From positions 1-55,094 of IMG/VR virus record IMGVR_UViG_3300044955_000042: DNA of 55,094 nt; one strand, written 5' to 3'. This stretch comes from a virus. A model generated the notes under the pieces. The model had not been told where the DNA came from and did not search any database. It saw nothing but the letters and a program-made list of their open reading frames with translations. This document shows positions 14,354 to 41,930 of the stretch, piece after piece (position 1 is the stretch's first letter; each line of letters begins with the position of its first letter). A program made the translations under genes and the position numbers.

Positions 14354-17300
14354 TTATTTTCTTGCTTGGCCTTCCATGCTTGTAAGCTGATCACCCCAAC
14401 GAAGGATTTGTTGCATCTTACCAAGTCTCTCTTCTACTGTTTCTGAGTCATCAATGTACTCATCAGCAGTTTGATCAGTTACACCGCCCCACTGCATAAC
14501 TGCATCTAGGCTTGCATAGCTCGAAGATTTAATCTTGTAATTATTCACAATAAATCCAGCAGCAGCTCTTGGGGCTTTTCTTGCAAAGTCATTGAAGCTT
14601 TTCTCTACACTATCTTCAATACCATTCTTGAAGCGAGAGATAAACTTCTCAAGCTCTACCTTGCGCAACTCTGGTGGAAGATCCTCATAGCCACGACCAC
14701 CAAGAAACTCTTTATTCTGCGACCACTCCTCAAAGGCTGGAGAGATTGATTTTGACATCAGCTCACGGACTGCAATATCTACATTTGGATTCTTTACTGT
14801 TGCTGACCCAAGAACCATGAATGGTTGTATGCCAAGCCGTACCATCTCACGTTCTATTGCGTTTCTCTTTGGTCGTGTATCAATACCAGTGATCTGGCTC
14901 ATCAGTGGGTTTACTTTTTGTACCGGCTCTGAACTAAAGCCATTGTACAAAGGTACGTCAGTCTTACCATTAAAGCTAGATGCAAACTGCAACCACTCAA
15001 AGTCTGGAAGGAAGCGGAGAGCTCTCTGTACAAGTTGTGTCTGACCAAGCTCTTGTGGACCAAGCTCATTTGCACCCATCTGCAAGTTTCTTGTATAGGG
15101 TGATGGCGTTGAGCTTGGATTAAACTGACCTTGGATATCTCTGACTGTTGCAGCAGGCATTGTTAGTGTTGCAGCCACATCACCCAACCACTTTGAGGCA
15201 CGTTCATTTAGCTGTCCATCTTCCACAGATGCCACCAATGGTTCAATAACACTGTTGCTATAACCGTAGGCATTTAGGCCTGCCAAAACCTTAAGGGCTT
15301 CAGCACCAGTGTCCTTAATACCAGCAAGAGGGGGTTCACCCTTCAACTGTCTTGCAATCATATCACCAATAAACAAGTGTGCCATGTATGGACCACCAGC
15401 ACGGCTCCAATCCATAACATCTCCAGACTCTGGATCAATTGATTCTCGGTATGTTGTAGCCGGGTCTGCGTAGTAGCGAGCACCTACAGCCCCAACCAAC
15501 ATCATTGTACCAGTAAGACCCTTTGCAATCTTCTCGTTGCTAGAGACCATAAGGCTTTTGCTAGTTTGCCCTGACGCCTTCTCCCAAAGACCTTGTGCAA
15601 GACCTGTTGGAAGGTGTCGGTGCATGTACTCCATCTGGTTAGCAACATATCTTGGGAAGGGCATACCGCCAAGACCAGATACAACAAACGGTAGGTTTTT
15701 GTTTGCGTTGATTACTGTTTTTGCAGTTTTGCCAAACCAATCTTCAGCACCCTCATAGCCATATTGGTAAGAGAAGCTAAGTGCCTGAGCTCTTGCTTTC
15801 TCAACCATCTCTTGTGGAAGTGCATCAAGACCAGCACTCTTCATAAGAAAACTGTCGAGAGATTTCGCAGCAACCTCGTCACCAGAGTCTCTGATCTGTC
15901 TCTGAAGAGATGCGTACAACACAGCCTCTTTGAACTGTGTATCAACTACGTTGTTGAGGGTGTTAAAAGCTCTTGCAGTTCTGGCCAAAACAGAGTTTGT
16001 ACCTGTCTCGGTTTCAATACGCGATACATCGTAGAACATTTTTGCCATTGGAGACTCGGGGTCAAGTTCTGCAAGGATGCGAAGAACATGAGCTTCTTCC
16101 TTACCCCAAGTAAGACCCTTAACCACATCAAGCGTACCGCTAAGAGGGTTTCTACCCTCAATGATATTAGTGAAGAGTCTATCTGAAGCATCTGTCGCAA
16201 TTCTGCCAACAGAGCTCCCCACGTTAGCTGCAGTAGTTGCAAGCTGAGTTGTCATCATACCAATACGGAATGAGTCAGCCTCTCGCAACATGGACACAAC
16301 ATCACCGGAGTTTAAACTACGTGCCATATCCTTGAGGGCTTCATCGGCAGGCGAGGTAATACCCTGCTTTGCAAAATCATCCAAGTTGCCTAAGAATGTG
16401 CCAATATCTTTTTTAGCTTTTTCAGCTGAGAGCTTTGCTTGAGACTCTGAAAGACCTTTCTTGATCTGACTTGCAATGTTCAAAGTTCTACCAGCCTCTG
16501 ACATGTCAGTCAGGAACATAAGAGAGAACTCACCTTTTGTAAGGCCATAATCTTTCCTCAGTGCCTGCAGCCCAGAAGAGTCTATCTTACCCTCAGCTAA
16601 CGCATCCGAAACCTTCTGAGAGATACGAACATCATCTGAAAGATTAAACCCAAGTTTCTCACTTAGATCAAGTGTAGCAGCTGAGACTTTACGAAGGGAA
16701 TCAGAGGTAAACCTTGCGGTGACTGGTTCACTACCAGTGCCATCAAACACCTTTGCTGCTACGTCTTTACCAAGCTCAACCATCTCCTCGTCAAGGGGTT
16801 TTTTAAACTTAGCAACAGTACCTGACTCACGCTTCTGTAGGAGGTCTACAAGGTTGGTCATACGTGTTTGTAGGGCTTGGTACTCTTTACTCTTAGGTGT
16901 GCCCTTAGCGGCCTTCTTTGCGGCGTCTAGGGCCTCTTTAGCCTTCTTTGCAGCAAGCACATCAGAGTTCTTCATCCGTGCACCCTGACCTGCCAGGATG
17001 TCGATTGCTTGGTTCTGCTTTTTTATTGACTGAGTACGAGCAAAAGCACCCAGACCCCCACCGAGAGCGCCTGAGATAGCTGCAGCAGCTGCAACCTTAC
17101 CCATGTTCTTTTCGTACCCTTCAATAGCGTCCTCTCGGATGCCCTCACGAAGGTACTCTGTACCACCCTCTATGCTACCCTCGATAGCAGCACCACGTAC
17201 AGCACCCTTAACAGCAGCTGCCTTAAGGCCCTCTTTAACGGCTTCTGTAGCAACCTTATCCCTTACAAAACCTTTTGCGGTTTGTTTGGTCAGGCCTTCG

Positions 17301-17833
17301 GTGATGACACCTTTTACAGATGCACTCTTCATTGCCGACTTTGCAACTTCCTTACTAACAAGACCTGATAGCATTTTTCTTACAGAGAGTTGACCGGCCT
17401 TCTTAGCACCAGCAGCTGCAACCTTACTCACAGGTCCACCAAAGCCAGCTGTCACAACAGTAGCAACGGTAGACGGAGATGTAGCAATGGCTTGGAAATA
17501 ATCAGATGCACCATCAAGCACACCTGTGCCAGCACCCTCAGAGTTATCCCATGCGGTAATCAGACGCCCAAAAGACTCAAGACTTTCTTGGTCTTTGTCC
17601 TTGGCGTTCTTTACATACCAGAGGTCTTTAGCAACGGTTGTCTCGTTACTCTCCTGCCAACGCATGTGGTCAATAAATTTATCAGCTAGACCCTCTGGAC
17701 CCATCTCTTTGATATCGTCCATTGAATACTTATAGCGGGAGCCAGTGAAGAAGTTGATGAGGTCTTTCTGCATGTCTGCATCGTTGACTAGACTGTTGAA
17801 CTTCTTCCCCTCTGCCTTCTCAAAGTAGCTCAT
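14354..17833 (-). CDS. Large internal virion / DNA-ejection protein (1159 aa)
   Basis: Last gene of the late operon, where T7-like phages carry the largest internal core protein (gp16). No lytic transglycosylase motif was found. Residues about 120-290 are Ala/Gly-rich with repeated stretches such as VAAAAAISGALGGGLGAF and KGAVRGAAIEG, which look like membrane-inserting helices. A long helical middle and a C-terminal region with short helices follow. The position suggests part of a trans-envelope channel during ejection; this is inferred from position, length and composition. The ATG overlaps the stop of the preceding gene. Confidence 0.7.
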   Translation of the reverse strand: MSYFEKAEGKKFNSLVNDADMQKDLINFFTGSRYKYSMDDIKEMGPEGLADKFIDHMRWQESNETTVAKDLWYVKNAKDKDQESLESFGRLITAWDNSEGAGTGVLDGASDYFQAIATSPSTVATVVTAGFGGPVSKVAAAGAKKAGQLSVRKMLSGLVSKEVAKSAMKSASVKGVITEGLTKQTAKGFVRDKVATEAVKEGLKAAAVKGAVRGAAIEGSIEGGTEYLREGIREDAIEGYEKNMGKVAAAAAISGALGGGLGAFARTQSIKKQNQAIDILAGQGARMKNSDVLAAKKAKEALDAAKKAAKGTPKSKEYQALQTRMTNLVDLLQKRESGTVAKFKKPLDEEMVELGKDVAAKVFDGTGSEPVTARFTSDSLRKVSAATLDLSEKLGFNLSDDVRISQKVSDALAEGKIDSSGLQALRKDYGLTKGEFSLMFLTDMSEAGRTLNIASQIKKGLSESQAKLSAEKAKKDIGTFLGNLDDFAKQGITSPADEALKDMARSLNSGDVVSMLREADSFRIGMMTTQLATTAANVGSSVGRIATDASDRLFTNIIEGRNPLSGTLDVVKGLTWGKEEAHVLRILAELDPESPMAKMFYDVSRIETETGTNSVLARTARAFNTLNNVVDTQFKEAVLYASLQRQIRDSGDEVAAKSLDSFLMKSAGLDALPQEMVEKARAQALSFSYQYGYEGAEDWFGKTAKTVINANKNLPFVVSGLGGMPFPRYVANQMEYMHRHLPTGLAQGLWEKASGQTSKSLMVSSNEKIAKGLTGTMMLVGAVGARYYADPATTYRESIDPESGDVMDWSRAGGPYMAHLFIGDMIARQLKGEPPLAGIKDTGAEALKVLAGLNAYGYSNSVIEPLVASVEDGQLNERASKWLGDVAATLTMPAATVRDIQGQFNPSSTPSPYTRNLQMGANELGPQELGQTQLVQRALRFLPDFEWLQFASSFNGKTDVPLYNGFSSEPVQKVNPLMSQITGIDTRPKRNAIEREMVRLGIQPFMVLGSATVKNPNVDIAVRELMSKSISPAFEEWSQNKEFLGGRGYEDLPPELRKVELEKFISRFKNGIEDSVEKSFNDFARKAPRAAAGFIVNNYKIKSSSYASLDAVMQWGGVTDQTADEYIDDSETVEERLGKMQQILRWGDQLTSMEGQARK

Positions 17834-18816
17834 CTAAAACCTCTGTTATTTGTACTTTCAAGGACACCTGGCTGGAAGGTATTTCCGGGAAGGACTTCTT
17901 CTTCCTCCTCTTCTGGAATTGAACCTGGAATACCCGTCATCTGTGGGATTGCGGCCTGAAGGTCTGTTGGTGTAGCTGCAGTTTCGTCGGCTGGTGTACC
18001 TGTTGGTCCAAGATCATACTTATCAGAAAGTCCACTTTCCCAAGCCTCAATTACCATACCCTCAGCCCTTGATGTACCGTACTTATACTGGTTTTCTTCC
18101 AACATAAGCTTAACATCATTCTGAACCCTTGCAAGAACTGGGCCATCAATATCAGGTGCCTCAACAAAATATTTACCATCCGAACCAATACGGAGCTTAG
18201 CCTTATCACCCAAGAGGTTTGATGTTAGTGTGGCAGCAGTTTTAGAGAGTCCCTCAGCAGAGTAGGTCTCTGGCTTACCGAGATCAGGCGTCATACCACT
18301 ATAGGTTGAACCACCAGAAGTTGGCAGATCAAAGTCCATAAATTCTTCATACGAGAGATAACCATCTGCAAGCACCTCACTGAGGAACTCATCCTGTGTA
18401 CCAATATCTGCAGAAGAGTACATAGAACCCTTCTTCAACAACTCTGTACCAAGAGCTTTTTGGTTTGGATCTTCAGATGTAAGGAGTGTGTTGATCTGGT
18501 CACCCACACGAGCTACAATAGCGTTAGCCCAGCCCTTATCAGCCTCTGTACCTTTGTACTGTGAAACCACCTCAGCAAGTGATCCCATATTCTCTAGGAC
18601 TGTTGCTGTCTCTTCCCCAAAAAGGTTCACACCCTTACGGTATACAGCAGCACTTGCTTTTGCTGCAGCTTTGGCTTGAGACCTACGTTCCATAAGAACT
18701 GGCAAAAGACGTTCTGTAATACGGTCTTTACGCTCTTGCTCCATAAGCTCACGCTTGAACTTACGATCTTCTTTTTCTTTAATGTACTCTGCCGCACCGG
18801 CCCATGACCAACCCAT
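17830..18816 (-). CDS. Virion-associated protein, unknown function (328 aa)
   Basis: Begins MGWSWAGAAEYIKEKEDRK, then a long charged helix (KRELMEQERKDRITERLL) and an Ala-rich helix; the middle is acidic, and the end is a Pro/Gly-rich tail with a run of six Glu. It starts in contact with the previous stop and ends in an ATGA overlap with the 1159 aa gene. Within the ejection-protein block it is probably a virion component. Not recognised by family. Confidence 0.65.
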   Translation of the reverse strand: MGWSWAGAAEYIKEKEDRKFKRELMEQERKDRITERLLPVLMERRSQAKAAAKASAAVYRKGVNLFGEETATVLENMGSLAEVVSQYKGTEADKGWANAIVARVGDQINTLLTSEDPNQKALGTELLKKGSMYSSADIGTQDEFLSEVLADGYLSYEEFMDFDLPTSGGSTYSGMTPDLGKPETYSAEGLSKTAATLTSNLLGDKAKLRIGSDGKYFVEAPDIDGPVLARVQNDVKLMLEENQYKYGTSRAEGMVIEAWESGLSDKYDLGPTGTPADETAATPTDLQAAIPQMTGIPGSIPEEEEEEVLPGNTFQPGVLESTNNRGFR

Positions 18817-19388
18817 TATACAGCTCTCCTGCTCATAAGACCCTTACTAGGCACTTCTTGTGGTTGTGGCATGTCCATATCAGCTGGAGCCTCTTCACCA
18901 CCTTCAAAGTCAGTGACCTCTGCGTCAGCTTCCTCTGTCGTCATTTCACCTTCTTCAGGTACATCCACATCTGGAATATCAATACCAGACTCTTTCAACA
19001 TCTTCTGTGCCCTTTGACGAACCATCTCTTTACGTGCTTCATCAGTTGAGCCATCATCAATACCCTCATCATATTCAACACCAAGAGAGTCAGCAGTCTT
19101 TTTAATAAACTCGTGAATAGCAGGTGCAACAATCAGGCTAACATCAATTGAGTGAATACCGTTTGCAACAGCTGCACGAACGATACCAGTGGTGACGGTC
19201 TTAATTGTGAGGCCAGCAACCTCAACAAGGTGAAGTACAGCCTCCATCTTGTCTGGGTCCATAAGGCGTCCAAGGTGCATATCAAGCGCCTCTCTTGGGT
19301 CAGTCACACTGGGTGGGTTCTCCCACGGAGCATTCTTAGGCTTCTGTGTAAGTGACATGCCCGGGATAGGGCCAGTAAAGTTATTCAT
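18816..19388 (-). CDS. Virion-associated protein, unknown function (190 aa)
   Basis: N-terminal Pro-rich lead, then helices (HLVEVAGLTIKTVTTGIV; LIVAPAIHEFIKKTADSL) and a very acidic, probably disordered C-terminal third ending in SKGLMSRRAV. Similar small proteins sit next to internal virion proteins in marine podoviruses, in my memory of the layouts. Function unknown. Confidence 0.6.
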   Translation of the reverse strand: MNNFTGPIPGMSLTQKPKNAPWENPPSVTDPREALDMHLGRLMDPDKMEAVLHLVEVAGLTIKTVTTGIVRAAVANGIHSIDVSLIVAPAIHEFIKKTADSLGVEYDEGIDDGSTDEARKEMVRQRAQKMLKESGIDIPDVDVPEEGEMTTEEADAEVTDFEGGEEAPADMDMPQPQEVPSKGLMSRRAV

Positions 19389-19391
19389 CTT

Positions 19392-20150
19392 TTAGTACTC
19401 CATATAGCCCGAAGCTTTAATCAACCTGCTACCCATGTGAGGTGTTCCTGGTCTAAGGAAGCTATCAGAGATAAACCTTGTGGCTTCTTCCAAGTCTTCA
19501 ATCTCCCTCAACCCAGCAAGTGTGTTGATACCCATTGATTGAATCTCTGAGTCTTTCTCTGTAAGTTCTTTTTTCAAGTAACCCCAGTTAGCTTCATAAG
19601 AAGATGGATCAAGACCGTTCTCAGCAGCCCAAGCTTCAAACATCTTACGACGAGGGCCTGTCCACTGTGCAAACCCATAACCACCACGAGAGCCCGCTAC
19701 CGTAGGGTTAATCTCTTGCATAAACTTAAAACCACCTGTTTCGTGAGCCAAGTTACCAACAAATGCTGCAGCCTGCTCTTTTGTAAGGCCAAGCTCCCCC
19801 TGTAAGTCTTCCATGAGACGGACACCAATTTCAGCGTTCTCTAGTGCATCACCACGACTAACTGGCTTAAGTACCTCTTCACTCTCTGAACCGGGTCTTG
19901 CTAGTGGTCTCAAGCTTTTCTCTGGAGCAAGGGATGACTCTGCCTCTACTGTATCAAGGTAGTCTCCAATATCTGAGAAGAGACTGTCTACAGATAGGAC
20001 TCCATAAGACATGGGCTCAATCATTTCACCAACATCACCAGATTCTGGTCTACGTCTAGAGGCTAGGCCAGAGGCTTTTGAAACCTCTGCCTGGTCCCTG
20101 ATCTCATCTGCCAAGCTTCTGGCTTTTGTATAACCTGCTGTATAATCCAT
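19392..20150 (-). CDS. Virion (tail) lysozyme, Phage_lysozyme2-like
   Basis: 252 aa. The N-terminal 100 residues are charged and probably link the enzyme to the virion. The C-terminal domain has the lysozyme2 pattern: LGLTKEQAAAFVGNLAHETG with the likely catalytic Glu137, then GGYGFAQWTGPRR and EAWAAENG. This enzyme would open a small hole in peptidoglycan during entry. It stands between the repeat protein and the small virion proteins, in the place where T7 has its ejection proteins. It is distinct from the M15 endolysin at 48135. Confidence 0.85.
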   Translation of the reverse strand: MDYTAGYTKARSLADEIRDQAEVSKASGLASRRRPESGDVGEMIEPMSYGVLSVDSLFSDIGDYLDTVEAESSLAPEKSLRPLARPGSESEEVLKPVSRGDALENAEIGVRLMEDLQGELGLTKEQAAAFVGNLAHETGGFKFMQEINPTVAGSRGGYGFAQWTGPRRKMFEAWAAENGLDPSSYEANWGYLKKELTEKDSEIQSMGINTLAGLREIEDLEEATRFISDSFLRPGTPHMGSRLIKASGYMEY

Positions 20151-20164
20151 ACTATATTATCCTA

Positions 20165-23100
20165 TTAGAACCAATCACCACCGAAGATTTTATCAGTGGC
20201 CCAAAGGTACATTTGTGTTTTACCAGAGTCTTCTTGAGAATCAAGTTGCATTTGAACTGAGTCCAAACTCAGTTCCCCAAGAAGTAGGTCGACATTTCTA
20301 TTAGCAGCATTTTCACCAGCAGAGAATGCGAAGGCCATAATATCACGCTCACGCTGCCACAGATCGTCAAGAGCTTTAGCAGTCATAGCATTAGCCGTAG
20401 CTGCCTCTTCTCTGTTAGCATCGTTCTGTGCCTCTGTGTCTGTAAGTGTGATTGTCTGACGCCACTTAGCATTTGCCTGTGCAATAATCAAACCATTAGT
20501 TGCGTTAAACTGATCTCTTGCAGACTCCAACTGTGTATTAAACCGCTCATTTGCGTTCTCTTCACCAGAGTTAAACTGAGCCATAGCATTTGATTGGTCC
20601 GCATTGAAGCGAGCAATGTTAGCCTCAAGATCAGCAAAGAACTGAGTTACTTGGTTCTCACTGGCAGCATTAAACTGTTCAGCAGCATTCTCAGCAGCTT
20701 GATCAGACAACATAGAGTTAATGATTGACTGACTTGCAAAGATAGATGCCTGCTGTTCATTACTCAAGTTTGTCAGATCCATTTGAAGAAGGTTCTGAGC
20801 GTTCTGCACTTGAGCTTGCTGACGGTTGTTCAGGTTCGTCATGTCCAGGTTAGACATAGCAGCTGCATCAGACAACAGTTTGGCAGAGCTTGAGTTAAGG
20901 TTTGCAAGGTCTACTGACTGTGCAAGCTTAGAGTTTTCAATGGCTCTTTGCTGGTCTGCAGTGAAGTTGATGTTTGCAACCTCACCAATACGTGCTGCAT
21001 TGAGTGTACCCGTTTGCTGTGCATTTGTCAACTCTTGACCACGCATAGCAGCATCAATTTGAGCGTTAGCCAAAGCAGTCTGCTGACGATTTGACAGGTT
21101 TGCCATATCAACATTAACAGTGTTTGTCATGTTAAATAGTCTGGTTTGCTGTTCGTTACTTAGCTCTAGGCCACGCTCTTGTATCAGATTAGATGTGTTG
21201 AAGATTGCAGTTTGTTGTTGGTTGTCAAGAACCTTACCTTCCATAGCAGCCTTTATGTTTGCATCTTGCATAAGTGCTTGCTGTGCGTTTGTAAGATTGA
21301 GGTTGTTGACCTCTGCATATCTAGATGCATTGAGAACAGCTGCCTGCTGTTGATTATCCAAAACCTTACCCTGAAGGCTTGCACGTAGTTGAGCGTTTGC
21401 AAGTGCTGTCTGTGACTCTGTTGAGAGGTTTGCGAGATCAACCTGAAGGTTCTCTGCGCTCCTTTGCAAAAGTACTTGCTGTTCATTAGATAGGTTAATA
21501 TCGTTTACTGTCGCAATACGTGAAGCGTTAAACAGGGATGTCTGCTGAGTAATATCCATAACCTTACCTTCCATGGCAAGGCGGGCAGAAGCATCTTGTA
21601 AGATTGCTTGTTGTTTTGCATTGGCAGTAAACTCAGCTGCTTGGAAGGCCTGAGTAGACTCAAGCATTGCCATCTGTTGGTCGTTTGTAAGTTCTTGACC
21701 ACGAAGAGATGCCTGTACCTGCAGGTTCGCAAGTGCAGTTTGTTGAGACGCATCAAGGTTAGTGAGATCAACTTGTAAGTTTTGTGCACTTCTCTGCAGG
21801 AGAGTCTGTTGTTCATTGTTCAAGTTAAGGTTGTTCAACTCAGCATAGCGTGAAGCATTTGCCATTGCTGTCTGAGTATACACATCCAAAACTTGACCCT
21901 GAAGAGCTGCCTTCATTTGAGCATTTGCAAGCACAACAGCTTGTTGGTTGCTAAGGTTTTGTGATTGAAGTGCAAAAGCATTTGAGCTGTTTTGAAGTGC
22001 TACCTGTTGCTCATTGCTAAGGTTAGCCAAGTCCATGTTTTGCTGTGCAGCTGCATTAGAAAGCGCTACTTGCTGACGGTTATCGAGGTTGGTCAGCTCC
22101 ATCTGCATGAACATTTGTGCATCAGCCTGTGCAATAGGCATAGCAGCCTCCATAGAGGCCTGTACAATAGCAGCTCCAGCCATAGAGGAGGCACCTAGCC
22201 CACGTGCACCCATAGCAGCATTAGCGGCTCTCATAGCCCCTGCAGCCCATGCTGGTGTGCCATCATTAAACTGCTCCATCAACTTGGTCATCTGACCTGA
22301 AATGGTGGCAGAAACTGGTACAGAACCTTGCTCAGCTATTGCAAGTGAAGCTTGGCTTAAGGTACCATTTACAGCTTGTGCGACAGAAGCATTATTGAGG
22401 GCTTCCATTGTTGCAGCAGTTGCTTCAATTGCTTCTGCAACTTTTGTGATATCTTTTGCATCAACTAACTCGTTTGCACCAACAGTACCTTGGGCAGCAG
22501 TTACAGTGCTTTCAAAAGAAGATTGAGCAGCCTCTGCAGTTGGAATATCCCCAACCTTTGCAGCGTCTTGGATTACAGTTTCATTTAGTGTGGCTGACTC
22601 TGTTGGTGGAAGGTTATAGGACGTTTGGGCATCTACAAGCTCACCACTCTCAACTGAACCTTCAGCTGATGTAAGTTTGTTTTCGTATTCAGTCTTCACA
22701 ACACCAGCTTGTTCAGGGCTAAGGCCCACACCTTGACCGTCAACAAGTTCATTTGTGTTTACTGTACCAGAAACTGTACCTGTTTGCACATCGGCATAGT
22801 CTACAACAGCTTCAGCGCCTGGTGTTGGTGTAGCAAACTTAGCTGCAACAACCTCACCGGGTTGACCTGTAGTCTGTGCAATAGCCTGTGGTAGTGGGAT
22901 ACCCTGATTGGCGAGTGTGGCGGCTTCAGCAAGTTGATCAGGTGTAACTTGAAGATCACCAGTGTCCAGTACTTGTCTAATTTCTTCGATCTGTGGTGCA
23001 GTGAGACCAAGCTGTGCAAGCTCTTCTGTATTCATGGTCTGAGGGGTTACAAGTTGTGTCACCTCACCGGTAGCTGCCTCAGTACCCTCTGCTTGAGCAC

Positions 23101-23710
23101 GAACACCGTCTATAGACTTTGTTGCATCATAGGTGGTGGCAGTCATAGCCTCTGGGCCAGCTGCAGTAGCTGTTGTATCAACAGTTGTGGTATCAGCCTC
23201 CCTGACTTGATCTACGTTACCTGTACCTGCAGCAATTAGTTGTTCTGGTGTTGCAGCACCAACTTTATCCACTGTAGCTGCTTCAACCATAGATGTAGGA
23301 TCACCAAAGATCTTACCCACTGTTTCGCCACCGGTCGGTACATTTTCAATACCAAACTGTGTTCTAGCAACGTTTAGGTCAGACTGTGCTTTTTGATAAG
23401 CCTCTTCTGCGCTTGCAAGAGATTCCTGTGCAGAAGCGTTATCTGGAGATGCTTCTGCAAGACGTGTGGCGTCTACTCTAGCTTTAGTAGCATCTGATAG
23501 TGCAGTCTTTGCATCTTCTAAGTTTGTGAAACTTACATCACCACCTGGAGCCATGCCAGTACGTTTTTGCATAACACGAGAGAACTTACCCATTTTGGCA
23601 GCAGCCCCTGGGTTAGAAGCAATAAAGGCTTCCATCATTTTAGAATCAGCAGGGCCATCATAACCCATCTTGCTGAGAAGGTTTTGTTGCTGTGTTGGGG
23701 TAAAATTCAT
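20165..23710 (-). CDS. Internal virion protein with 22- and 11-residue helical repeats (1181 aa)
   Basis: An Ala/Gln/Asn-rich protein. Residues 1-540 are a Thr/Ala/Glu-rich region with a few repeated ELVDxQ or NELVDA stretches. From residue 541 to 1002 there are 21 exact 22-residue units with the theme NLSNxQQtALxNA and no insertions or deletions; after eight residues, about seven 11-residue units of the type xxFNA(x)6 follow (from about residue 1011). Two 11s make 22, so the whole tract fits a hendecad helix. The C-terminal 100 residues differ (LWQRERDIMAF ... GGDWF). It has its own promoter. Position before the tail lysozyme points to an ejected core protein; no enzyme motif is seen. Confidence 0.8.
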   Translation of the reverse strand: MNFTPTQQQNLLSKMGYDGPADSKMMEAFIASNPGAAAKMGKFSRVMQKRTGMAPGGDVSFTNLEDAKTALSDATKARVDATRLAEASPDNASAQESLASAEEAYQKAQSDLNVARTQFGIENVPTGGETVGKIFGDPTSMVEAATVDKVGAATPEQLIAAGTGNVDQVREADTTTVDTTATAAGPEAMTATTYDATKSIDGVRAQAEGTEAATGEVTQLVTPQTMNTEELAQLGLTAPQIEEIRQVLDTGDLQVTPDQLAEAATLANQGIPLPQAIAQTTGQPGEVVAAKFATPTPGAEAVVDYADVQTGTVSGTVNTNELVDGQGVGLSPEQAGVVKTEYENKLTSAEGSVESGELVDAQTSYNLPPTESATLNETVIQDAAKVGDIPTAEAAQSSFESTVTAAQGTVGANELVDAKDITKVAEAIEATAATMEALNNASVAQAVNGTLSQASLAIAEQGSVPVSATISGQMTKLMEQFNDGTPAWAAGAMRAANAAMGARGLGASSMAGAAIVQASMEAAMPIAQADAQMFMQMELTNLDNRQQVALSNAAAQQNMDLANLSNEQQVALQNSSNAFALQSQNLSNQQAVVLANAQMKAALQGQVLDVYTQTAMANASRYAELNNLNLNNEQQTLLQRSAQNLQVDLTNLDASQQTALANLQVQASLRGQELTNDQQMAMLESTQAFQAAEFTANAKQQAILQDASARLAMEGKVMDITQQTSLFNASRIATVNDINLSNEQQVLLQRSAENLQVDLANLSTESQTALANAQLRASLQGKVLDNQQQAAVLNASRYAEVNNLNLTNAQQALMQDANIKAAMEGKVLDNQQQTAIFNTSNLIQERGLELSNEQQTRLFNMTNTVNVDMANLSNRQQTALANAQIDAAMRGQELTNAQQTGTLNAARIGEVANINFTADQQRAIENSKLAQSVDLANLNSSSAKLLSDAAAMSNLDMTNLNNRQQAQVQNAQNLLQMDLTNLSNEQQASIFASQSIINSMLSDQAAENAAEQFNAASENQVTQFFADLEANIARFNADQSNAMAQFNSGEENANERFNTQLESARDQFNATNGLIIAQANAKWRQTITLTDTEAQNDANREEAATANAMTAKALDDLWQRERDIMAFAFSAGENAANRNVDLLLGELSLDSVQMQLDSQEDSGKTQMYLWATDKIFGGDWF
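20705..22090 (-). repeat. 66-base tandem protein repeat, 21 units
   Basis: Coding repeat of 22 codons, first unit at residue 541, last ending at residue 1002. Every unit keeps its exact length, while the sequence has diverged. Units alternate loosely in type: NL-QQ types and VLD-QQQ types recur every third or fourth unit, for example units 4, 9, 12 and 14 share ASRxAxxN- or NTSN-like centres. Confidence 0.9.
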
Positions 23711-24443: not shown

Positions 24444-26669
24444 TTAGTCTCCTGTGTTTAATTGAGCTTCTAGCTCGGTTACTTTAGCAGACAACTCTTG
24501 GATCGCCTTAACTAAAACTGGTACTAGCTTGCCGTAAGCAGCTTCAAGTTTCTCTGGGTTTTCATCAAAGACAAGGCCCGGAATTGTGACACCTGTGTCT
24601 TCTTGAGTTTGTTGTAAGTCTTGCGCAATAAAGCCTGTGTCAGGTATACCAACTTTACCACCATCACGCATGTTCCATGTAAATGAAACTGGATCAAGAC
24701 GTTCAACAAAGTCTAACCCTGCCTGTAGTGGTGCCACATCTGTTTTATCACGAGCATCTGAAATAGCCGTAATAGATGTAACCTGACAGCGGAGTGTAGC
24801 AATAGAAGAGTTACCAAGAGTAATCTCGTTATTTGCGGTGTTAGAAGATGCATTTGCAGAATAGCCAAGCAGACTGTTATTAGTTCCTGTAACAGCTTGT
24901 CCTGTTTGATAACCAACAAAAGTGTTGTTTGACCCTGTACAAATGCTACCAGACTCATAGCCAATTAACGTTTGACCATTCGCACCTGTAGAACTTCTAC
25001 CTGCATAATAACCCATATAAACGTTTTGTGAGCCGCCAACTTTTAAACCTCCTGCAAACGCACCTACTGCTGTGTTTCTATTATCTGTAGCAGAGGGTAA
25101 AACATTATAACCGACAGCCGTACTGTCATTGTCATTTGTGATTGCCCCAAGGCTAAAGCTACCAATAGCTACATTACGGATACCTGTCGTAATAGAAGAA
25201 CCAGCAGTTCTACCAAGAAGTACGTTATCACTAGCCGTAGTAACATTTGTCCCAGCATCTGCACCCATCGCTACATTGTATGACCCAGTAGTCAAAGCAT
25301 CTAAGGCATTGTATCCAATAGCATGGTTGTAGTCGCCAGTTGTAATACTATAAAGCGTTCTATTACCAATCGCTACGTTATACTCACGCACGTCTGTTGT
25401 AGTGACGCTGCTGCCAAACATCGCATCACGACCAATAGCAACACCGTAACGGTTACTAGCAGCGTTATACATAGCGTTAGGGCCAATAGAGGTGTTATAA
25501 AATGCACCACGAGGATTGTACATAGCGCTAGGGCCAACAGCAACGTTGTTATCGCCTGTACTTGCGGCCCCTCCACCAGCACTTGAACCGATGAAGACAG
25601 AGCTACTTGTTGTAGTGCCTGTTACATCAAGAGCTTCAACACCAATAACAATGTTCGAGCCATTGCTTAGATAAGCACCAGCAGACTTACCGATTGCAAT
25701 GTTGTTGCTTTGTGTCGTGACATTAAAGCCAGCGTTATAGCCTATAAACGTGTTGTATACACCAGTAGTCACATTTGCACCAGCATTTCTGCCTATACCT
25801 ATGTTGGAAGTTCCTGATGTTAAATCCTCTAAAGCGTCATAACCAATAGCTACGTTGTCATCACCAGATGCCGTAGTTGTTGTACCTATAGCATTATAAC
25901 CAATGGCTACGTTACGTTGGCCTGATGAAATACCCTGACCCGCTGCTCTACCAACACCAACGTTATTGTCTTCGTTTGTATAATACAACGCACGGTAACC
26001 AAGAGCTACGTTGAAGGATTTGGTGGTGGCTGTAAATAGGGCCTGCCTGCCGAAGGCAACGTTGTCTGTACCTGTAGTAATACTTAATCCTGCGCTTTTA
26101 CCAGCAGCAAAGTTATTAGCACCTGTAGTAAAATCTTTTAGTGCTTCGTAGCCTATGCCAATGTTATAATCACCAGTACCACCAGCAGTGCCACCCATAG
26201 CTCCACGATAGCCGATACCTACAGTGTAATCTGCTGTAGTTACGTTATACCCTGCTTGATAACCGACTGCGGTGTTGGAGGTTCCTGATGTTGTAGTAGC
26301 AAGAGCACCGAAGCCTACAGCGGTGTGATAATCACTTGTAGTTACAGTAGTTAATGCCGTGTATCCAACAGCAACGTTTTGACCACCGTTAGTAATAGCC
26401 CCACCAGCACTATAACCAAGCAATACGTTTTGGTCACCTGTCGTGATAGCTGTACCAGCACTTGTGCCTAAAGCAACGTTACGAATACCACTGCCAGCAG
26501 TAATACTGTCTAAAGCATTTGTACCTAAACCAAGGTTACCATCTGAGTCGTTAATACCATCGCTAAGTCCAGCGATATCTGAGGCACCACCTACAGAGGC
26601 ACCGTCTAGTGTAATAGAACCACTTGTAGCGGATATGTCATTAGTCTGATGGTTAATTGTAATTGCCAT
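24444..26669 (-). CDS. Tail fibre/spike with YadA-head-like repeats and S74 chaperone
   Basis: 741 aa. From about residue 50 to 600 it is built of repeats of the type NVAIGxxAL-xxxTTGxxN, as in trimeric adhesin heads and phage host-contact fibres. The last 105 residues start with SDARDKTDVAPLQAGLDF, the autocleaving S74 intramolecular chaperone signature, with a coiled-coil tail (LVKAIQELSAKVTELEAQL). In this family the chaperone helps the fibre trimerise and then cuts itself off before the conserved Ser-Asp. A probable receptor-binding protein. Confidence 0.88.
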   Translation of the reverse strand: MAITINHQTNDISATSGSITLDGASVGGASDIAGLSDGINDSDGNLGLGTNALDSITAGSGIRNVALGTSAGTAITTGDQNVLLGYSAGGAITNGGQNVAVGYTALTTVTTSDYHTAVGFGALATTTSGTSNTAVGYQAGYNVTTADYTVGIGYRGAMGGTAGGTGDYNIGIGYEALKDFTTGANNFAAGKSAGLSITTGTDNVAFGRQALFTATTKSFNVALGYRALYYTNEDNNVGVGRAAGQGISSGQRNVAIGYNAIGTTTTASGDDNVAIGYDALEDLTSGTSNIGIGRNAGANVTTGVYNTFIGYNAGFNVTTQSNNIAIGKSAGAYLSNGSNIVIGVEALDVTGTTTSSSVFIGSSAGGGAASTGDNNVAVGPSAMYNPRGAFYNTSIGPNAMYNAASNRYGVAIGRDAMFGSSVTTTDVREYNVAIGNRTLYSITTGDYNHAIGYNALDALTTGSYNVAMGADAGTNVTTASDNVLLGRTAGSSITTGIRNVAIGSFSLGAITNDNDSTAVGYNVLPSATDNRNTAVGAFAGGLKVGGSQNVYMGYYAGRSSTGANGQTLIGYESGSICTGSNNTFVGYQTGQAVTGTNNSLLGYSANASSNTANNEITLGNSSIATLRCQVTSITAISDARDKTDVAPLQAGLDFVERLDPVSFTWNMRDGGKVGIPDTGFIAQDLQQTQEDTGVTIPGLVFDENPEKLEAAYGKLVPVLVKAIQELSAKVTELEAQLNTGD

Positions 26670-35851: not shown

Positions 35852-36070
35852 TTATTTTTTAGGGCGTCTTGCAGCAAGACCTTTTTTAGGTTTTTCTGCG
35901 GGCCTTGGTGCTGCAAGGCTATTCATCAGGGGTTTAAAAGTGTCTCCAAGAAGGGATGAAAAAAGCTGACCCTCTTCACTCATACGAAAAGCACGAACCT
36001 TTTCTTTATCTTCTTCTGGTAGACTTGCGTACCTCTCAGCCAAACCTTTTGTGTATTCTTCAAGATCCAT
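35852..36070 (-). CDS. Small helical protein between portal region and scaffold (72 aa)
   Basis: N-terminal acidic helix (MDLEEYTKGLAERYASLPEE), C-terminal Pro/Lys tail ending AARRPKK. Overlaps the end of the giant gene before it. Likely a head-assembly helper by position; not recognised. Confidence 0.6.
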   Translation of the reverse strand: MDLEEYTKGLAERYASLPEEDKEKVRAFRMSEEGQLFSSLLGDTFKPLMNSLAAPRPAEKPKKGLAARRPKK

Positions 36071-39000
36071 TTACTTCTTCCTGTTTTGATTTACCAAGAG
36101 CCCTGCAGATTGGGTATCCAACAACCTGCAAAAATTTACCGAGCTTGTGTGGCTTGTAATCTTCTGGAGCCATTTGGTGGGCCATTTGTTGAGCCCAAGC
36201 TCTTGCGATAGGTGTGATAAACTCAAGAGCAATTTTTGAACCAAGGCTGTCACCCTGTATATACTGAGCAAAGGGTGTGGCCCATCGTTGATAGCCAAGA
36301 CGTAGTGCAGGGTCTTCTACACTAATACGCAGACCATATGCAGCATCAAGGGCATATATATCATCATCTAGTCTGCCCATTGCGTGTAGGGCGGTACAAA
36401 TAACAGTACCACCGTCACCACCTCCACCGTCACCACCGCCATAACCTGCTGTACCGTCTGGATTTGGTCCCTGGAAGCTTGGTGCAGGGGCACTCTCGTT
36501 ACCACCCTTAAAACTTGGTTGAGCTGGTGGGCCGGTAACTGCCGCAGATTCAGGACTGAACGAAGTCTCAAGACCTCTTGCATCATTAACCCCACCAGTA
36601 CCCAGACCCCCTTCAGAGGAGTAGCTCCCTGAATCTGCGTCATAGCTCATACCTGTAGGTGCAACTGCTTCCATAGCTTCATTAAAAGCGTCTACAGACT
36701 GAAAAGAGCTATTTGGGTCTGTTTCTGGGTTTGTAGCGTTAATCATCCCTGAGTCTACGGTTTCAAAACTAAAAAGTGCGTCCATAGCGGATTTTGTTTG
36801 GTTTTCTATTGAATTAATTGTCACAGACTTTGTAGACCCTTTAAGCCCATCTAACGCCTCATTGAGGGCTTCCTGAGCTTCCGTAACATCGTAACCAAGA
36901 GTTTCTGCAACAGCAATAGAAGCAGCTGCATCAGAGAGGGCATCCGCTGTACCAAGACCTTTACCTATATTAGTACCAATTCTTGCACCAAGCGGGCCAA
37001 GTCCAACCATACCAGCAAGTCCACCCAGCGTACCACCAATTTTACCAGCATTTGAAATTGTATCTGAAACACCACTTAGTGGGTCATTCACATCAATACC
37101 ACGTAGTCCCTGTCCAGATGTCGAGGAATTTGGATTGTTGTTATCAGGGTTGCCTGGACCTTCACCACCACCAGAGAAGCTACCGGTATTAACTCCAGTA
37201 CCTTGTGACTGTGTTGTCTCAGCGTTTTGTGCTTGTTCAAGTGCAGCTTTAGTTGCAGGAACAAAGTTCTTTGGGATAAAGCTGATAGGTTTACCGTTTA
37301 GAAACTGAAAAGTTCTTGTCTGACCTGTTGAAGTGTCAACATACTGACGGGCTTCAAAACCTCCGCTAGAGCCATAAGCACCCGCTGTGTTATATGCACC
37401 ACCAACTGAGTAAGGTGAAGTTGGAACATAACTTGTAGTCTGAAGCCCACCGTCAGAAAAACCTTTAACTACACCACCACTGGCCATGCCTTGTGGTTGA
37501 TCAGCAGCCATTGCTTCTGCAAGCATAGCTTCTTCTTCTGGTGTAAGGGCTTCGTCCTCTTCCAAAGGAATGCCATTGGTATCTACTGGTGTACCACCAA
37601 TACGTCCATCTGCTTCCATTTCCATCATATCAGACTTTGCTTCACCACGCAAGTCCTCAAAAAACTTCACACCAAAATATCTTACAACATCTGCTGGAAC
37701 CACATACTCACCCTCAGAAAGCTGTGCAGGTACATCGTCACGAACCTCAGAGGCCATTGAACCTGGTGGAATTTCATTACCTGTCACAGGCTCACGTTCC
37801 ATGCCGTCATCAGCAAGGCCACCTGCCTCAAAGAGGTTCATCTGTTTTTCCATAGTTTTTACTTCTCCACCCTCTGCATACTTTTGTTTTTTGGTTGTGT
37901 TCTTAGTGAGCCTAATATTAGCTGCTTTTTCTGGCATACTGACTAAAGAAGTACCATCTTCTTCTATTAATTTTTGAGGTATGACATCTACATAATCAAA
38001 ACTGTCTGGGTCGTTTTGTTGACCCCAACGTATTCCAGGGCCGTCCCCACCTTCACTAATAAGGCGAACAGGTATTGTGGTTTCACCCTGTTCTCTGAGA
38101 GCAATTGCACGGTGACGCCCATCGTGGCCTGTAACTTTGCCAGTTCCGTCTGCGTTATTCTTAAATGAGAGCGATGGCACCGAATCAAATGGCTTACCTT
38201 CGGAGACAAGCTTCCTGGTATTTTCTAGTTTTTCAGCACTAAGATCCTTTTTAGCAGCTTGAAGAAAATCCTCAATTGGCATATCCACAAGAATTTCTCT
38301 AGACTTATCATTTTGATTGGCTGCGACACGCAAGGCCTCTTCGTTAAAACGTGGAGGGTTTTTAATAGGCTTATCAGAGGGTTTTAATCTAACATTCCCA
38401 CCCAAAGAACCCACAGCATCGGGGTCGATCTCTACGCGCTTAGCTACATCAAAGACTTCTTTAGCACCCTTTTTAATAGCCTTAGCTGCAACGTCCCCAA
38501 GGCCAGGTATTAGTCCAATAAGAGTAGCACCTCCCAGAGCTCCAACTAAATAGTAGTTAGGCTCTTCCTTTTTAAGCTCCTCATATATGTCTTTAGCTGC
38601 CATAGCATCCCCAATAATAGGGGTCATTTCGGCAACAAAAGTCGCCAAATCTTTAAGCGTAACTTCCGTTAGTGGTTCATACTCAGATACAAGTTTGTCG
38701 GTATAATTTGACCACTCTTCTGGGGTTGCACCTAGTAAGGTGTCTGTCTGTTTATCTGCAGCAGTCTTACGTTCCATACCATCATCTGCAAGTCCACCCT
38801 CTGCAAACCCAATTTTATTTTTAAGTGTCTCAAACCAACTTGGCTTTCTTTGATATGAGCGTGGCGGTTCACCTTGCTCTTTTAAGAGGTCTTCTGCTGC
38901 AAGGGCTAAACCAACCGAACCTCTAAGACCGACACCAAGAAGTGTTTCAAGGCTGTGAACACCAATATTACTTAAGTCAGACGCTCTTGAACTTTTTAAA

Positions 39001-39644
39001 GCCTCTTGGAGTCTATCTCTGCCCTTTTCTACAGAGGGAGAAAAATCAGAGTCCGCATAACCAGACATATTTTCCCTAATACCATGAAGCTCTTTTGAAA
39101 GGTCATCAAACAACTCAGTAAAGGCTTCTTCTTTCTCGCCCCCCTTAGCCATTTTTTTAAGTAGATTGGTGGCGTCTACCCCATACTTTTTCTTAAAACC
39201 TTCAGGGTCTTTTTTGTAGTACTGCTCAAGTTTACCCACACCTTTGTGTGTGTATTCATGAGACCAAATTGGGGATTCAGCAAGGTTGGGTGTAAGAAAA
39301 ACATCCCCCGGAGATACTTTACCAACAAAATTAGAAAAATCTTTATTGCTTTTTAAGAGGTTATCTACGGACTCTTGTGTATTTGACTCGGGGATGTGTC
39401 CAGCAAATCCACCCTTACCACTAATAAGCTGATCTACTTTACCAGATTTTGGGTCATAGCCAAGTCTAGCAATTGGGTTCCAGGAAAGTTGGTCCTCGAG
39501 ACCTACTCTGAACTCTGTGTCACCAAAATCTTCAGAGGAGAGTCTTGCAGATTCTTCTTTAAACTCTCTTTCCTCTCTCTGTTTTAAAGCCTCTTCTCGA
39601 CTTTTTGGTCTTAGGGACTTTGAAACAATTGTTTTTCTAGCCAT
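36060..39644 (-). CDS. Giant virion protein with HExxH and ParB-like motifs (1194 aa)
   Basis: A mosaic protein. Residues 129-133 read HEYTH, with a plausible third ligand in EEAFTELFDD some 40 residues on: the pattern of a zinc metallopeptidase. Around residues 450-560 a ParB-like stretch occurs (GHDGRHRAIALREQG). At about 650-690 comes EGEYVVPADVVRYFG, a segment I recall from cyanophage structural proteins. Two copies of GGLADDGME flank these parts. A Gly/Asn/Ser-rich linker leads to a compact C-terminal domain (VICTALHAMGRLDDDIY ... YQRWATPFAQYI). It lies between portal and scaffold, where maturation proteases are often encoded. Function is inferred. Confidence 0.7.
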   Translation of the reverse strand: MARKTIVSKSLRPKSREEALKQREEREFKEESARLSSEDFGDTEFRVGLEDQLSWNPIARLGYDPKSGKVDQLISGKGGFAGHIPESNTQESVDNLLKSNKDFSNFVGKVSPGDVFLTPNLAESPIWSHEYTHKGVGKLEQYYKKDPEGFKKKYGVDATNLLKKMAKGGEKEEAFTELFDDLSKELHGIRENMSGYADSDFSPSVEKGRDRLQEALKSSRASDLSNIGVHSLETLLGVGLRGSVGLALAAEDLLKEQGEPPRSYQRKPSWFETLKNKIGFAEGGLADDGMERKTAADKQTDTLLGATPEEWSNYTDKLVSEYEPLTEVTLKDLATFVAEMTPIIGDAMAAKDIYEELKKEEPNYYLVGALGGATLIGLIPGLGDVAAKAIKKGAKEVFDVAKRVEIDPDAVGSLGGNVRLKPSDKPIKNPPRFNEEALRVAANQNDKSREILVDMPIEDFLQAAKKDLSAEKLENTRKLVSEGKPFDSVPSLSFKNNADGTGKVTGHDGRHRAIALREQGETTIPVRLISEGGDGPGIRWGQQNDPDSFDYVDVIPQKLIEEDGTSLVSMPEKAANIRLTKNTTKKQKYAEGGEVKTMEKQMNLFEAGGLADDGMEREPVTGNEIPPGSMASEVRDDVPAQLSEGEYVVPADVVRYFGVKFFEDLRGEAKSDMMEMEADGRIGGTPVDTNGIPLEEDEALTPEEEAMLAEAMAADQPQGMASGGVVKGFSDGGLQTTSYVPTSPYSVGGAYNTAGAYGSSGGFEARQYVDTSTGQTRTFQFLNGKPISFIPKNFVPATKAALEQAQNAETTQSQGTGVNTGSFSGGGEGPGNPDNNNPNSSTSGQGLRGIDVNDPLSGVSDTISNAGKIGGTLGGLAGMVGLGPLGARIGTNIGKGLGTADALSDAAASIAVAETLGYDVTEAQEALNEALDGLKGSTKSVTINSIENQTKSAMDALFSFETVDSGMINATNPETDPNSSFQSVDAFNEAMEAVAPTGMSYDADSGSYSSEGGLGTGGVNDARGLETSFSPESAAVTGPPAQPSFKGGNESAPAPSFQGPNPDGTAGYGGGDGGGGDGGTVICTALHAMGRLDDDIYALDAAYGLRISVEDPALRLGYQRWATPFAQYIQGDSLGSKIALEFITPIARAWAQQMAHQMAPEDYKPHKLGKFLQVVGYPICRALGKSKQEEVNGS

Positions 39645-39825
39645 TAACTTTCTCCCTAAGCATTTTTAGTCTTTTTAGGGCAGCAATCTCACCCTGTAGT
39701 CTGTAGACATCTGGCAGGTCAGTTACCTGTTCCAGTGCACGGTGCCGTTCTGACACCCTCTGGTCAAGTTCCTCCAGAAAATCTTTCCAGAGGACTTTAT
39801 CATTTACGAGTGGCTTCAGGTTCAT
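39637..39825 (-). CDS. Small coiled-coil protein after the portal gene (62 aa)
   Basis: Begins MNLKPLVNDKVLWKDFLEEL and continues as a helix (RVSERHRALEQVTDL; RLQGEIAALKRLKML). ATGA overlap with the portal gene and overlap with the next gene. Small helical proteins of this place occur in many podoviruses; the function is unknown. Confidence 0.6.
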   Translation of the reverse strand: MNLKPLVNDKVLWKDFLEELDQRVSERHRALEQVTDLPDVYRLQGEIAALKRLKMLREKVNG

Positions 39826-41930
39826 GCAGCTGCTCCACCGGTGTTACCTGAGAAGCCCTGTTCTCCCGGCTGAGGGGCTGTACCAGTACCTATGGTACCT
39901 CCACCTGCCCCAGTGGTGTCTTGGGCCTGTGCGCCTGCTGGAGGGCCTGCCTGAGCCCCCTGTGGGCCTGGGGTACCTGCTACCTGTCCTTGGACCATCT
40001 CTGGGGCTGGATTTTGCTCTTGGAACTTCTTGAGAATCTCTGCTTGAATAGCAGCATCAGACATAGAGTTGACAACCTTATCTGGATCAAGATCCATAGA
40101 CTTTGCAATCTCACGGATAATGTAGTCAGTGCGAGCAAATGGTGCAAGTGCAGGGTTCTGTACAACACCAAGGAATTGCATGAGGCGTTGACTACGTACC
40201 TCATTAGCCATCAGTGATTCTGTACCCTGAGCTTTAACTTCCAGATCACCAACAATCTGATCATCGAAATCAAACTGCATGTTGAAGTGGAAAAATGCTT
40301 TGCCAAGAGGGGAAAGAAGGTAGTCATCAATATTCTTGACGACAGAACGGATAGAGCCGTTAGCAGCGCTCATAAGCATTGAGATACCTGAAGCTGTACG
40401 CCCTACACCAGACACACCGGTTTGACCGTGTGCAAATGATGGGAAGCCTGTAGACTCGTCTGCAAGGACACGTGCCTTATCAAACAGCTGCATATTCTCG
40501 TTTGCTACGTTGGGGAACTTTGTACCAAAGATAGCTTGACCGGGAGCACCACCTTGGCGTCTAAAGACTTTACCGGGATAGACTGAGAGGTCTTGGCCTG
40601 GAACCAAGTTGGTCTCATCTACCTCAATGATCAGGTTGCCTGAGAGTGCAGCGTTATCCACTGCCATCCGCATAAACCCGTTCATCAGAGTTTGAGTGTC
40701 TTCCATGTTTTCTGCAAGACCAATGCCAAAGAAGCTGTATGGATTAACTTCGTAAGGTACGGCATAGTAGGGCAGGTATGATGGTGTGAACGGGTTAAGA
40801 ACAAGTCGCATTACTTGACCATTGCAGGTCCAGATATTAACGCTTACTTGCTCCAGATCACGCATGTCTTTTGGGATCTTAATGTCGTGATCTTCTAAGA
40901 GTTCAACATCAACGTAACCCCAGAACTCAAGAACTTCAAAGCGCTCTGCTTGCTCTCCGTTCTCGCCATCTTCCATTACCTGTTCCCACCACTCTTTGTC
41001 GTAGTTTTCACCATAACCAATAGCAGTATCAATAGCATTGCTGCGGAAGTGTGGTCTACGTTTAAGCCCACGCATTTGACTACGTGAAAGTTTGTGGCGC
41101 TCAATAACAAACTCGGAGTCATCCATATTTGCTGCGTCTGGATCTGGATAGAAGTTCCAAATAGAAACAGAAGAGGTCTTGGGTACAGTCTTTACTGTTG
41201 GTTCATAGTTACCCTCTTCATCCCAGCTTGGATATTCTTTATCGAGAGCAAATGGACCCTTCATAACACCAGTACCAAAAAGAGCACACTCAAAGGCTGC
41301 AGTACGTAGTTGCTTACGTGCATTAGACTCTTCAAGCTGATCGTGGATCTTTTTCTCCATCTTCTTTGCTGCAACTTGTGCAGGATGGAAGGTAACTTGT
41401 GTAGGTGATTGCGCTGGGCCCTCAACCAAACGGTCAGCTACTGGCTCAAGTTTTGCACCCATGCCACCAAGACGTTTACGGAGGTCAACCATTGTTTCAC
41501 CTGGACGCAACTCAGTCTCACCACTACCTGCAGCTTTGACAAGCTCTGGGTTTGTTTCAAGAGATACTGAGTCTGCAATACCCTCTGGCAGGGTGGTAGG
41601 GTCAATTGTGATCGGGAAGCGGTTTGCACCAAATAGGACATCAATGATTTGCCCATATGCAGCAAGAACTTTTGTTTTAGTTACTTTGACAAAGACCTGA
41701 GACTTCTCTGTGCTTGTGAACTGTACATCCGGACCGTAGATACCACGGTAGTTTCTGTAAGCTTTAATCCAACGCTCTTCATCTACAAGGCGAGAGTCTT
41801 TAGCTTTTTTAAACTTGTGCTGAACAAAACTCTCTACAGAACCTGAGTCCTTGTCGAAGCTTGCCGTTTCAGAGACATCTTCAAGAGCTTGTGAAAGCTC
41901 AGAGTCCATCATGTCCTCAAATTCGTCCAT
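39822..41930 (-). CDS. Portal protein
   Basis: 702 aa. After an acidic N terminus, KAYRNYRGIYGPDVQF leads into the portal core; SVSIWNFYPDPDAANMDD and YYAVPYEVNPYSFFGIGLAE are typical of podovirus portals, the latter near the wing/stem part, followed by TLMNGFMRMAVDNAALSG. The C-terminal tail is Pro/Gly/Gln-rich (low complexity). It directly follows the large terminase. The portal forms the dodecamer through which DNA enters and leaves. Confidence 0.85.
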   Translation of the reverse strand: MDEFEDMMDSELSQALEDVSETASFDKDSGSVESFVQHKFKKAKDSRLVDEERWIKAYRNYRGIYGPDVQFTSTEKSQVFVKVTKTKVLAAYGQIIDVLFGANRFPITIDPTTLPEGIADSVSLETNPELVKAAGSGETELRPGETMVDLRKRLGGMGAKLEPVADRLVEGPAQSPTQVTFHPAQVAAKKMEKKIHDQLEESNARKQLRTAAFECALFGTGVMKGPFALDKEYPSWDEEGNYEPTVKTVPKTSSVSIWNFYPDPDAANMDDSEFVIERHKLSRSQMRGLKRRPHFRSNAIDTAIGYGENYDKEWWEQVMEDGENGEQAERFEVLEFWGYVDVELLEDHDIKIPKDMRDLEQVSVNIWTCNGQVMRLVLNPFTPSYLPYYAVPYEVNPYSFFGIGLAENMEDTQTLMNGFMRMAVDNAALSGNLIIEVDETNLVPGQDLSVYPGKVFRRQGGAPGQAIFGTKFPNVANENMQLFDKARVLADESTGFPSFAHGQTGVSGVGRTASGISMLMSAANGSIRSVVKNIDDYLLSPLGKAFFHFNMQFDFDDQIVGDLEVKAQGTESLMANEVRSQRLMQFLGVVQNPALAPFARTDYIIREIAKSMDLDPDKVVNSMSDAAIQAEILKKFQEQNPAPEMVQGQVAGTPGPQGAQAGPPAGAQAQDTTGAGGGTIGTGTAPQPGEQGFSGNTGGAAA

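Follow-up and report, generated by a model that had tools for sequence, protein, structure and literature searches.

What kind of protein is encoded on the minus strand at positions 20165..23710 of this viral DNA, where an ORF of 1181 aa carries a very long array of short repeats, and what might such an array do for a phage? The window analysed here is the whole 55,094-base record of an IMG/VR virus. Its portal protein shares at most 77% identity with those of Roseobacter phages CRP-13 and CRP-9, and 65% with that of Puniceispirillum phage HMO-2011, on which grounds we assign the window phage to the HMO-2011-type marine podoviruses, a group of marine viruses described as dominant and widespread (PMC9038755). 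Homologues of the repeat protein were found in 27 phage records (Roseobacter, SAR11, SAR116, Vibrio, Aeromonas, Pseudoalteromonas, and rhizobial phages) and, through a separate search, in 7 viral loci, and the family spans at least 569 viral loci. The same phage contigs (L192-L195) occur in two GTDB MAGs of different bacteria, TMED123 and MED589, an artefact that arose when contigs of free phage were binned. Nearly all homologues are annotated as hypothetical, and one record reads huntingtin. The question is of some weight, as this is a large conserved protein of that marine phage group and is without a match in the family libraries searched: no family for the repeat protein was returned when it and its homologues were scanned against Pfam, PHROG, and NCBIfam, and sequence and profile searches against the PDB gave no significant match and no solved structure. 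The best PDB sequence match (11mn_A, '66 kDa protein', E=0.042) did not come back with profiles. A literature search found no virion proteomics of relatives, and from its genome position the protein is probably a phage virion protein, as the original prediction had labelled it.

The repeats begin at residue 541 (base 22090). As predicted, 21 units of exactly 22 residues (residues 541-1002; 20705..22090, minus strand), all spaced at gaps of exactly 22, are followed by seven exact 11-residue units of the type QFNA... (residues 1012-1088; 20447..20677, minus strand), which continue the 11-residue frame of the 22-mers. The autocorrelation at 11 and 22 that had been proposed as a check yielded a lag-22 identity of 0.27 in the 22-mer block, compared with 0.10 in shuffles (z=12), and lag-11 identities of 0.15 in the same block (z=3.8) and 0.17 in the 11-mer block (z=4.4). 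The periodicity is neither chance nor low complexity alone. The strongest lag is 110 residues (5 x 22; identity 0.40), a super-period of the 22-mer block that was absent from the original prediction. A single 11-residue frame runs through both blocks without a break; it counts 50 hendecads, 33 of which have Asn at position 1, and corroborates the view of one long hendecad pattern. Across homologues, the consensus of the 22-mer reads N-L-[SNDT]-N-x-Q-Q-[AT]-A-[LVMI]-x-N-A-Q-x-x-x-Q-[MLV]-D-L-A, where position 3 is occupied in about 96% of the scored units by Ser, Asn, Asp, or Thr, which are typical N-cap residues. The anticipated Gln/Asn-rich, low-charge make-up was also borne out, with 17.6% Gln, 14.8% Asn, and 13% charged residues in the tract.

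The length of the tract was then compared among 191 homologous ORFs, measured between two conserved anchors, the Pro of PIAxxDA before the repeats and the Asn of NxxWR after them. The N-side anchor belongs to a conserved pre-repeat segment (residues 461-540, TPAWAAGAMRAANAAMGARGLGASSMAG...MPIAQADAQ; 22091..22330, minus strand), which was delimited by conservation and by an HMM that matches 192 ORFs. Anchor-to-anchor lengths equal 5 modulo 11 in 190 of the 191 homologues (two rhizobial members having been re-anchored for this count), although they take 18 distinct values: 148, 159, 170, 181, 214, 225, 236, 247, 269, 280, 313, 335, 423, 445, 533, 555, 643, and 665. The 11/22 signal expected of the homologues is thereby present as one mod-11 class, that is, an 11-residue period without slips, as hendecad proteins have it. 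A one-residue slip of the frame was observed in a sole homologue, L116 (314, not 313). Were the lengths independent, 18 of them would fall into a single class by chance with a probability of about 2e-18, the true figure being raised by relatedness; yet the N-part and the C-tail, which sit on the tract's own tree, are without phase lock and uniform modulo 11 (107 distinct lengths, P=0.78, and 37 distinct lengths, P=0.98, respectively). Modulo 22, one class holds 181 of the 191 lengths before re-anchoring, and 7 lengths are shifted by half a unit (mod 22 = 16). An array of 50 hendecads in strict phase, the length of which changes by whole hendecads only, constitutes a natural experiment on the register kept by a giant helix.

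Proline is entirely missing from the 43,815 tract residues of the homologues, compared with 6.1% in the N-part. AlphaFold2 predicted nothing but helix, at low global confidence, both for window residues 450-1181 (26 sequences; mean pLDDT 59, pTM 0.22) and for a shorter relative (44 sequences; mean pLDDT 61, pTM 0.23), which agrees with the proline count and with the alpha-helical nature of hendecad proteins; the globular non-helical fold named beforehand as the contrary outcome was not predicted. The last helix of the window model comprises 193 residues with a pLDDT of ~70-82 over the 11-mers, the shorter relative ends in one 178-residue helix, and pLDDT is mostly 70-87 over these C-terminal helices of the two models. 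A Foldseek search of the low-confidence model against the PDB gave no match at E<=0.001. Because of the single mod-11 class, the zero proline count, the all-helix models, and the random flanks, we conclude that the tract is a real, phase-locked hendecad helix, and by every test applied the protein is a hendecad helix protein. A beta-solenoid with 22 residues per coil, considered on account of possible Asn ladders and a 2.2-residue hydrophobic peak, was ruled out by the absence of proline, the low Gly content, and the all-helix models.

How this helix is arranged is less plain. The single helix of ~80 nm that had been proposed was retained only in part, since the long C-terminal helix of ~190 residues appears in the models, whereas the 22-mer block is broken at positions 1-3 (NL[SND]) of many 22-mers. 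These breaks, together with the N-cap residues at position 3, point to a folded internal helical bundle or solenoid, in which each 22-mer would form a ~19-residue helix capped at position 3 plus a short turn, and the whole would make a compact core or portal collar. A straight 555-residue helix would measure ~83 nm, which exceeds the periplasm and probably also the capsid interior for a 55 kb genome, so that the tract would have to be folded or bent if internal. Compact helical states beside the portal have precedents in the helical hairpin of N4 gp51 in virions (PMC12633501) and in the dodecameric ring of DEV gp72 in virions (PMC10925440). Nevertheless, the frame carries on through the 11-mer block, for which a single unbroken helix is predicted, and the seven half-unit lengths would be intolerable for a helix-turn unit if they lie within the 22-mer block. 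Considering in addition the low confidence of the models, we judge such a bundle unlikely. At the above pTM values, monomer AlphaFold2 cannot choose between a tube, a fibre, and a folded bundle.

The distribution of side chains around the helix was analysed as well. In the 22-mer block, hydrophobic residues make up 80-84% at hendecad positions 2, 8, and 10, charge is concentrated at positions 5 and 9 (36-39%), and amides account for 60-73% at positions 1, 6, and 7; when both blocks are pooled on the hendecad wheel, an angle of ~164 degrees separates the charged direction from the amide one. The first hydrophobic harmonic is close to zero and the second is dominant (permutation P=0.015 pooled; 0.20 and 0.27 per block). 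We regard this wheel geometry as only suggestive, since P22 gp26, a known trimer, is also without a significant alpha peak and has a strong 7/3 peak; different oligomers are thus not distinguished by this spectrum. For the same reason, the 2.2-residue hydrophobic peak was dropped as proof of a two-faced barrel helix, an analogous peak being present in P22 gp26. The original prediction had also considered an apolipoprotein- or synuclein-like amphipathic helix, which would be membrane-active and coat or remodel lipid. The relation 22 = 2 x 11 is indeed found in apolipoproteins, and Gly-zipper tails occur in homologues, but at a period of 3.67 residues hydrophobicity does not rise above the level of shuffles (P=0.18; whole tract P=0.91), which leaves no significant single hydrophobic face, in a weak test that P22 gp26 fails too. 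With the low proportion of charged residues and no basic/acidic class-A pattern besides, we consider this idea very improbable.

The gene neighbourhood bears on where the helix would act. Directly downstream lies a tail lysozyme of 252 aa (19392..20150; PF18013 Phage_lysozyme2, E=8.3e-20), and beyond it, likewise on the minus strand, are a 190 aa protein with a short hydrophobic segment (18816..19388), a probable internal virion protein of 328 aa (17830..18816) assigned by position and synteny only, and another of 1159 aa (14354..17833) that is gp16-like by position. Synteny marks the 190 aa protein as a conserved cassette partner, a homologue being located downstream in 149 of the 151 loci with enough sequence at a median gap of 239 bp; the 1159 aa homologue follows in 80 of the 151, many loci ending before it. 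Family scans of the neighbour genes gave no match to ejection families, and it is their place and size that suggest an ejection role for the 190, 328, and 1159 aa proteins. The hendecad gene holds the matching position in HMO-2011, CRP phages, pelagiphages, CHOED, phiM6, and Slicky01, and the gene order resembles the ejection gene position in other podoviruses (PMC8954989) and likewise the P22 map. Thus, the proposed location next to the tail lysozyme and probable ejection genes was confirmed, and the protein shares with P22 gp7/gp20-type (T7 gp14/gp15-like) proteins its place in what appears to be an ejection cassette. Upstream of the hendecad gene are spike/fibre genes with S74 and YadA-like repeats; a spike-like protein there (24444-26669, minus strand) combines 17-residue repeats with a C-terminal S74. 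Elsewhere in the window, a 1194 aa ORF (36060-39644, minus strand) near the portal gene (39822-41930) is without a PHROG or Pfam family at E<=0.001.

The variable N-part of the hendecad protein (residues 1-440; 22391..23710, minus strand) contains Ala, Thr, Gly, and Pro; before the anchor it measures ~180-1000 aa in homologues, at random modulo 11, and a Pfam scan of 59 N-parts revealed no recurrent domain. The window N-part contains loosely repeated ELVDA motifs (at about residues 320, 357, and 413). In the CRP-235 homologue, the N-part includes a LysM domain. The C-terminal helix and tail comprise residues 1089-1181 (20168..20446, minus strand). Many homologues end in a Gly-zipper hydrophobic helix (AIGGLIGTLGSAFI-type tails), and a few carry S74 or another C-terminal domain after the tail. 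Peptidase_S74 was found at the C-terminus of the CRP-3 (L025), CRP-738 (L027), CRP-235 (L029), and CRP-212 (L030) homologues; it is absent from the window protein. S74 is a trimerisation module and intramolecular chaperone of fibres and spikes. In HMO-2011 (L009) and 17 other loci, an alternative C-terminal domain of ~78 residues (from near CWVAREVYG) follows the Gly-zipper segment. The domain clues from homologues point both ways, S74 in one direction and LysM and the Gly-zipper tails in the other.

These S74 domains, along with the location of the gene between spike/fibre genes and the lysozyme, raise the main rival explanation, an external trimeric coiled-coil fibre or tail needle in which three parallel helices would form a long rod, its length set by the repeat number. 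Lengths of ~22-100 nm would be easy for an external rod, and the hydrophobic spectrum is analogous to that of the trimeric needle P22 gp26, which is likewise a podoviral helical rod of variable length encoded near ejection genes. P22 gp26 differs, however, as a heptad trimer with no 11-residue period, and profile comparison with it gave no match. Furthermore, S74 occurs in only four known members, and the C-terminal helix is best conserved while the N-part varies, which is the opposite of a usual fibre with its variable C-terminal tip. In many members the C-terminus is a short hydrophobic helix of the Gly-zipper kind, LysM resides in the N-part, and HMO-2011-type isolates have been described only with short tails (PMC6918029). 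On this evidence an external fibre or needle is rather improbable but a serious contender; if it were true, a short-tailed phage would bear a hendecad rod of unusual length.

The best explanation, which we favour tentatively and with somewhat less than even confidence, is a virion protein that is ejected and builds from its helices an amide-rich conduit, which would work like the phiX174 H tube. We prefer it because of the cassette, the membrane-like tail, the LysM domain, and the amide-rich, weakly charged tract; the LysM domain of the CRP-235 homologue would fit contact with peptidoglycan. The starting points are the hendecad frame, its conservation, the helicity (proline absence and prediction), and the gene neighbourhood. 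From there, we surmise an internal virion protein of HMO-2011-type podoviruses, the C-terminal two thirds of which are a phase-locked hendecad helix with a variable repeat number. Several copies would be expelled together with the neighbouring ejection proteins and might associate laterally as a helical barrel or tube, either lining the route of the DNA across the periplasm or prolonging it. A lumen rich in Gln and Asn side chains would face the DNA, and the C-terminal Gly-zipper helix might insert in or touch a membrane. The excessive length of a straight helix argues against such a conduit, as do the missing homology to phiX174 H, P22 gp7, gp20, or gp26 or any solved structure, the S74 on four homologues, the weak wheel pattern, and the low pTM.

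The comparison with phiX174 H is a mechanistic hypothesis with no kinship claimed, as hhalign gave a homology probability of <1%. Ten copies of H make up a helical tube with Asn, Gln, and Arg along its lumen (PMC7354561). Its central domain (PDB 4JPN, 4JPP) is, like the present tract, helical, hendecad-containing, and Gln/Asn-rich; in both, a Gln stands three residues before the core hydrophobic residue of the hendecad, and the amide side lies opposite the charged side, the angle being ~164 degrees in the three hendecads of H too. In contrast, H has only these 3 hendecads, followed by heptads, versus 50 here, and belongs to a ssDNA microvirus. H works in DNA delivery, and a similar role would be conceivable for the hendecad protein. 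Among tailed phages, Sf6 gp12 is a decamer that serves as a DNA-injection channel and can accommodate the H tube (PMC4755594), and DEV gp72, a nonameric helical ejection tunnel (PMC10925440), and N4 gp51 are portal-adjacent helical proteins for which a nonameric tunnel has been found or modelled (PMC10925440, PMC12633501). With these podovirus ejection proteins (Sf6 gp12/P22 gp20, T7 gp15, DEV gp72, and N4 gp51), the hendecad protein shares a similar genome place, an all-helical build, membrane-like segments, and neighbours comprising probable injection proteins and a peptidoglycan hydrolase; it differs in its period, since none of the three P22 ejection proteins has an 11-residue one. Profile comparison with P22 gp7 and gp20 gave no match, which also led us to reject a kinship with gp7 suspected from a GLGS motif and the Gly-zipper tail. 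At the level of sequence, no membership of the phiX174 H, P22 gp7, gp20, or gp26 families is thus detectable. The tetrabrachion stalk of Staphylothermus marinus is also made of 11-residue repeats, which form a very long, right-handed coiled coil of 70 nm (PMC5744192), but it is a four-stranded archaeal S-layer stalk, compared here by its description, the PDB sequence search being without a match. Long hendecad coils such as tetrabrachion and helical ejection proteins were already known; a phage hendecad array that stays in phase over such a length, and evolves its length in modules, is a fresh variation on these. If the conduit were true, the phiX174 H design would extend to tailed phages, with a tube length testable by module deletion.

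The evolution of tract length was followed among relatives. When two relatives are 60-90% identical over the C-terminal core, their tract lengths nearly always agree, and at most 1.4% of pairs differ. The 34 differing pairs above 60% identity show steps of 220 (20 pairs), 110 (8 pairs), 187 (4 pairs), and 11 residues (2 pairs). Independent 110-residue (330 bp) cases are L174/L176/L177 versus L180 (core 99% identical), the window versus L002 (87%), L178 versus L184, and L010 versus L003/L004. Identity between the extra 330-bp blocks and their neighbours is no higher than 40-62%, so that neither assembly collapse nor a fresh duplication accounts for them; the preference for 110 over 22 may reflect only which repeats are most alike. 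The repeat count reaches 50 hendecads in the window protein and 60 in a relative. In a more specific version of the conduit, each subunit would contribute one uninterrupted hendecad helix, and length would evolve in 110-residue (~16.5 nm) modules that set the injection reach, which we find distinctly doubtful. A genome or capsid ruler is unlikely, as tracts are shorter in phages with larger genomes (CHOED and phiM6, ~66-68 kb). For the 1159 aa neighbour, too, the best self-match falls at lag 110 (z=3.7), which may be a chance result.
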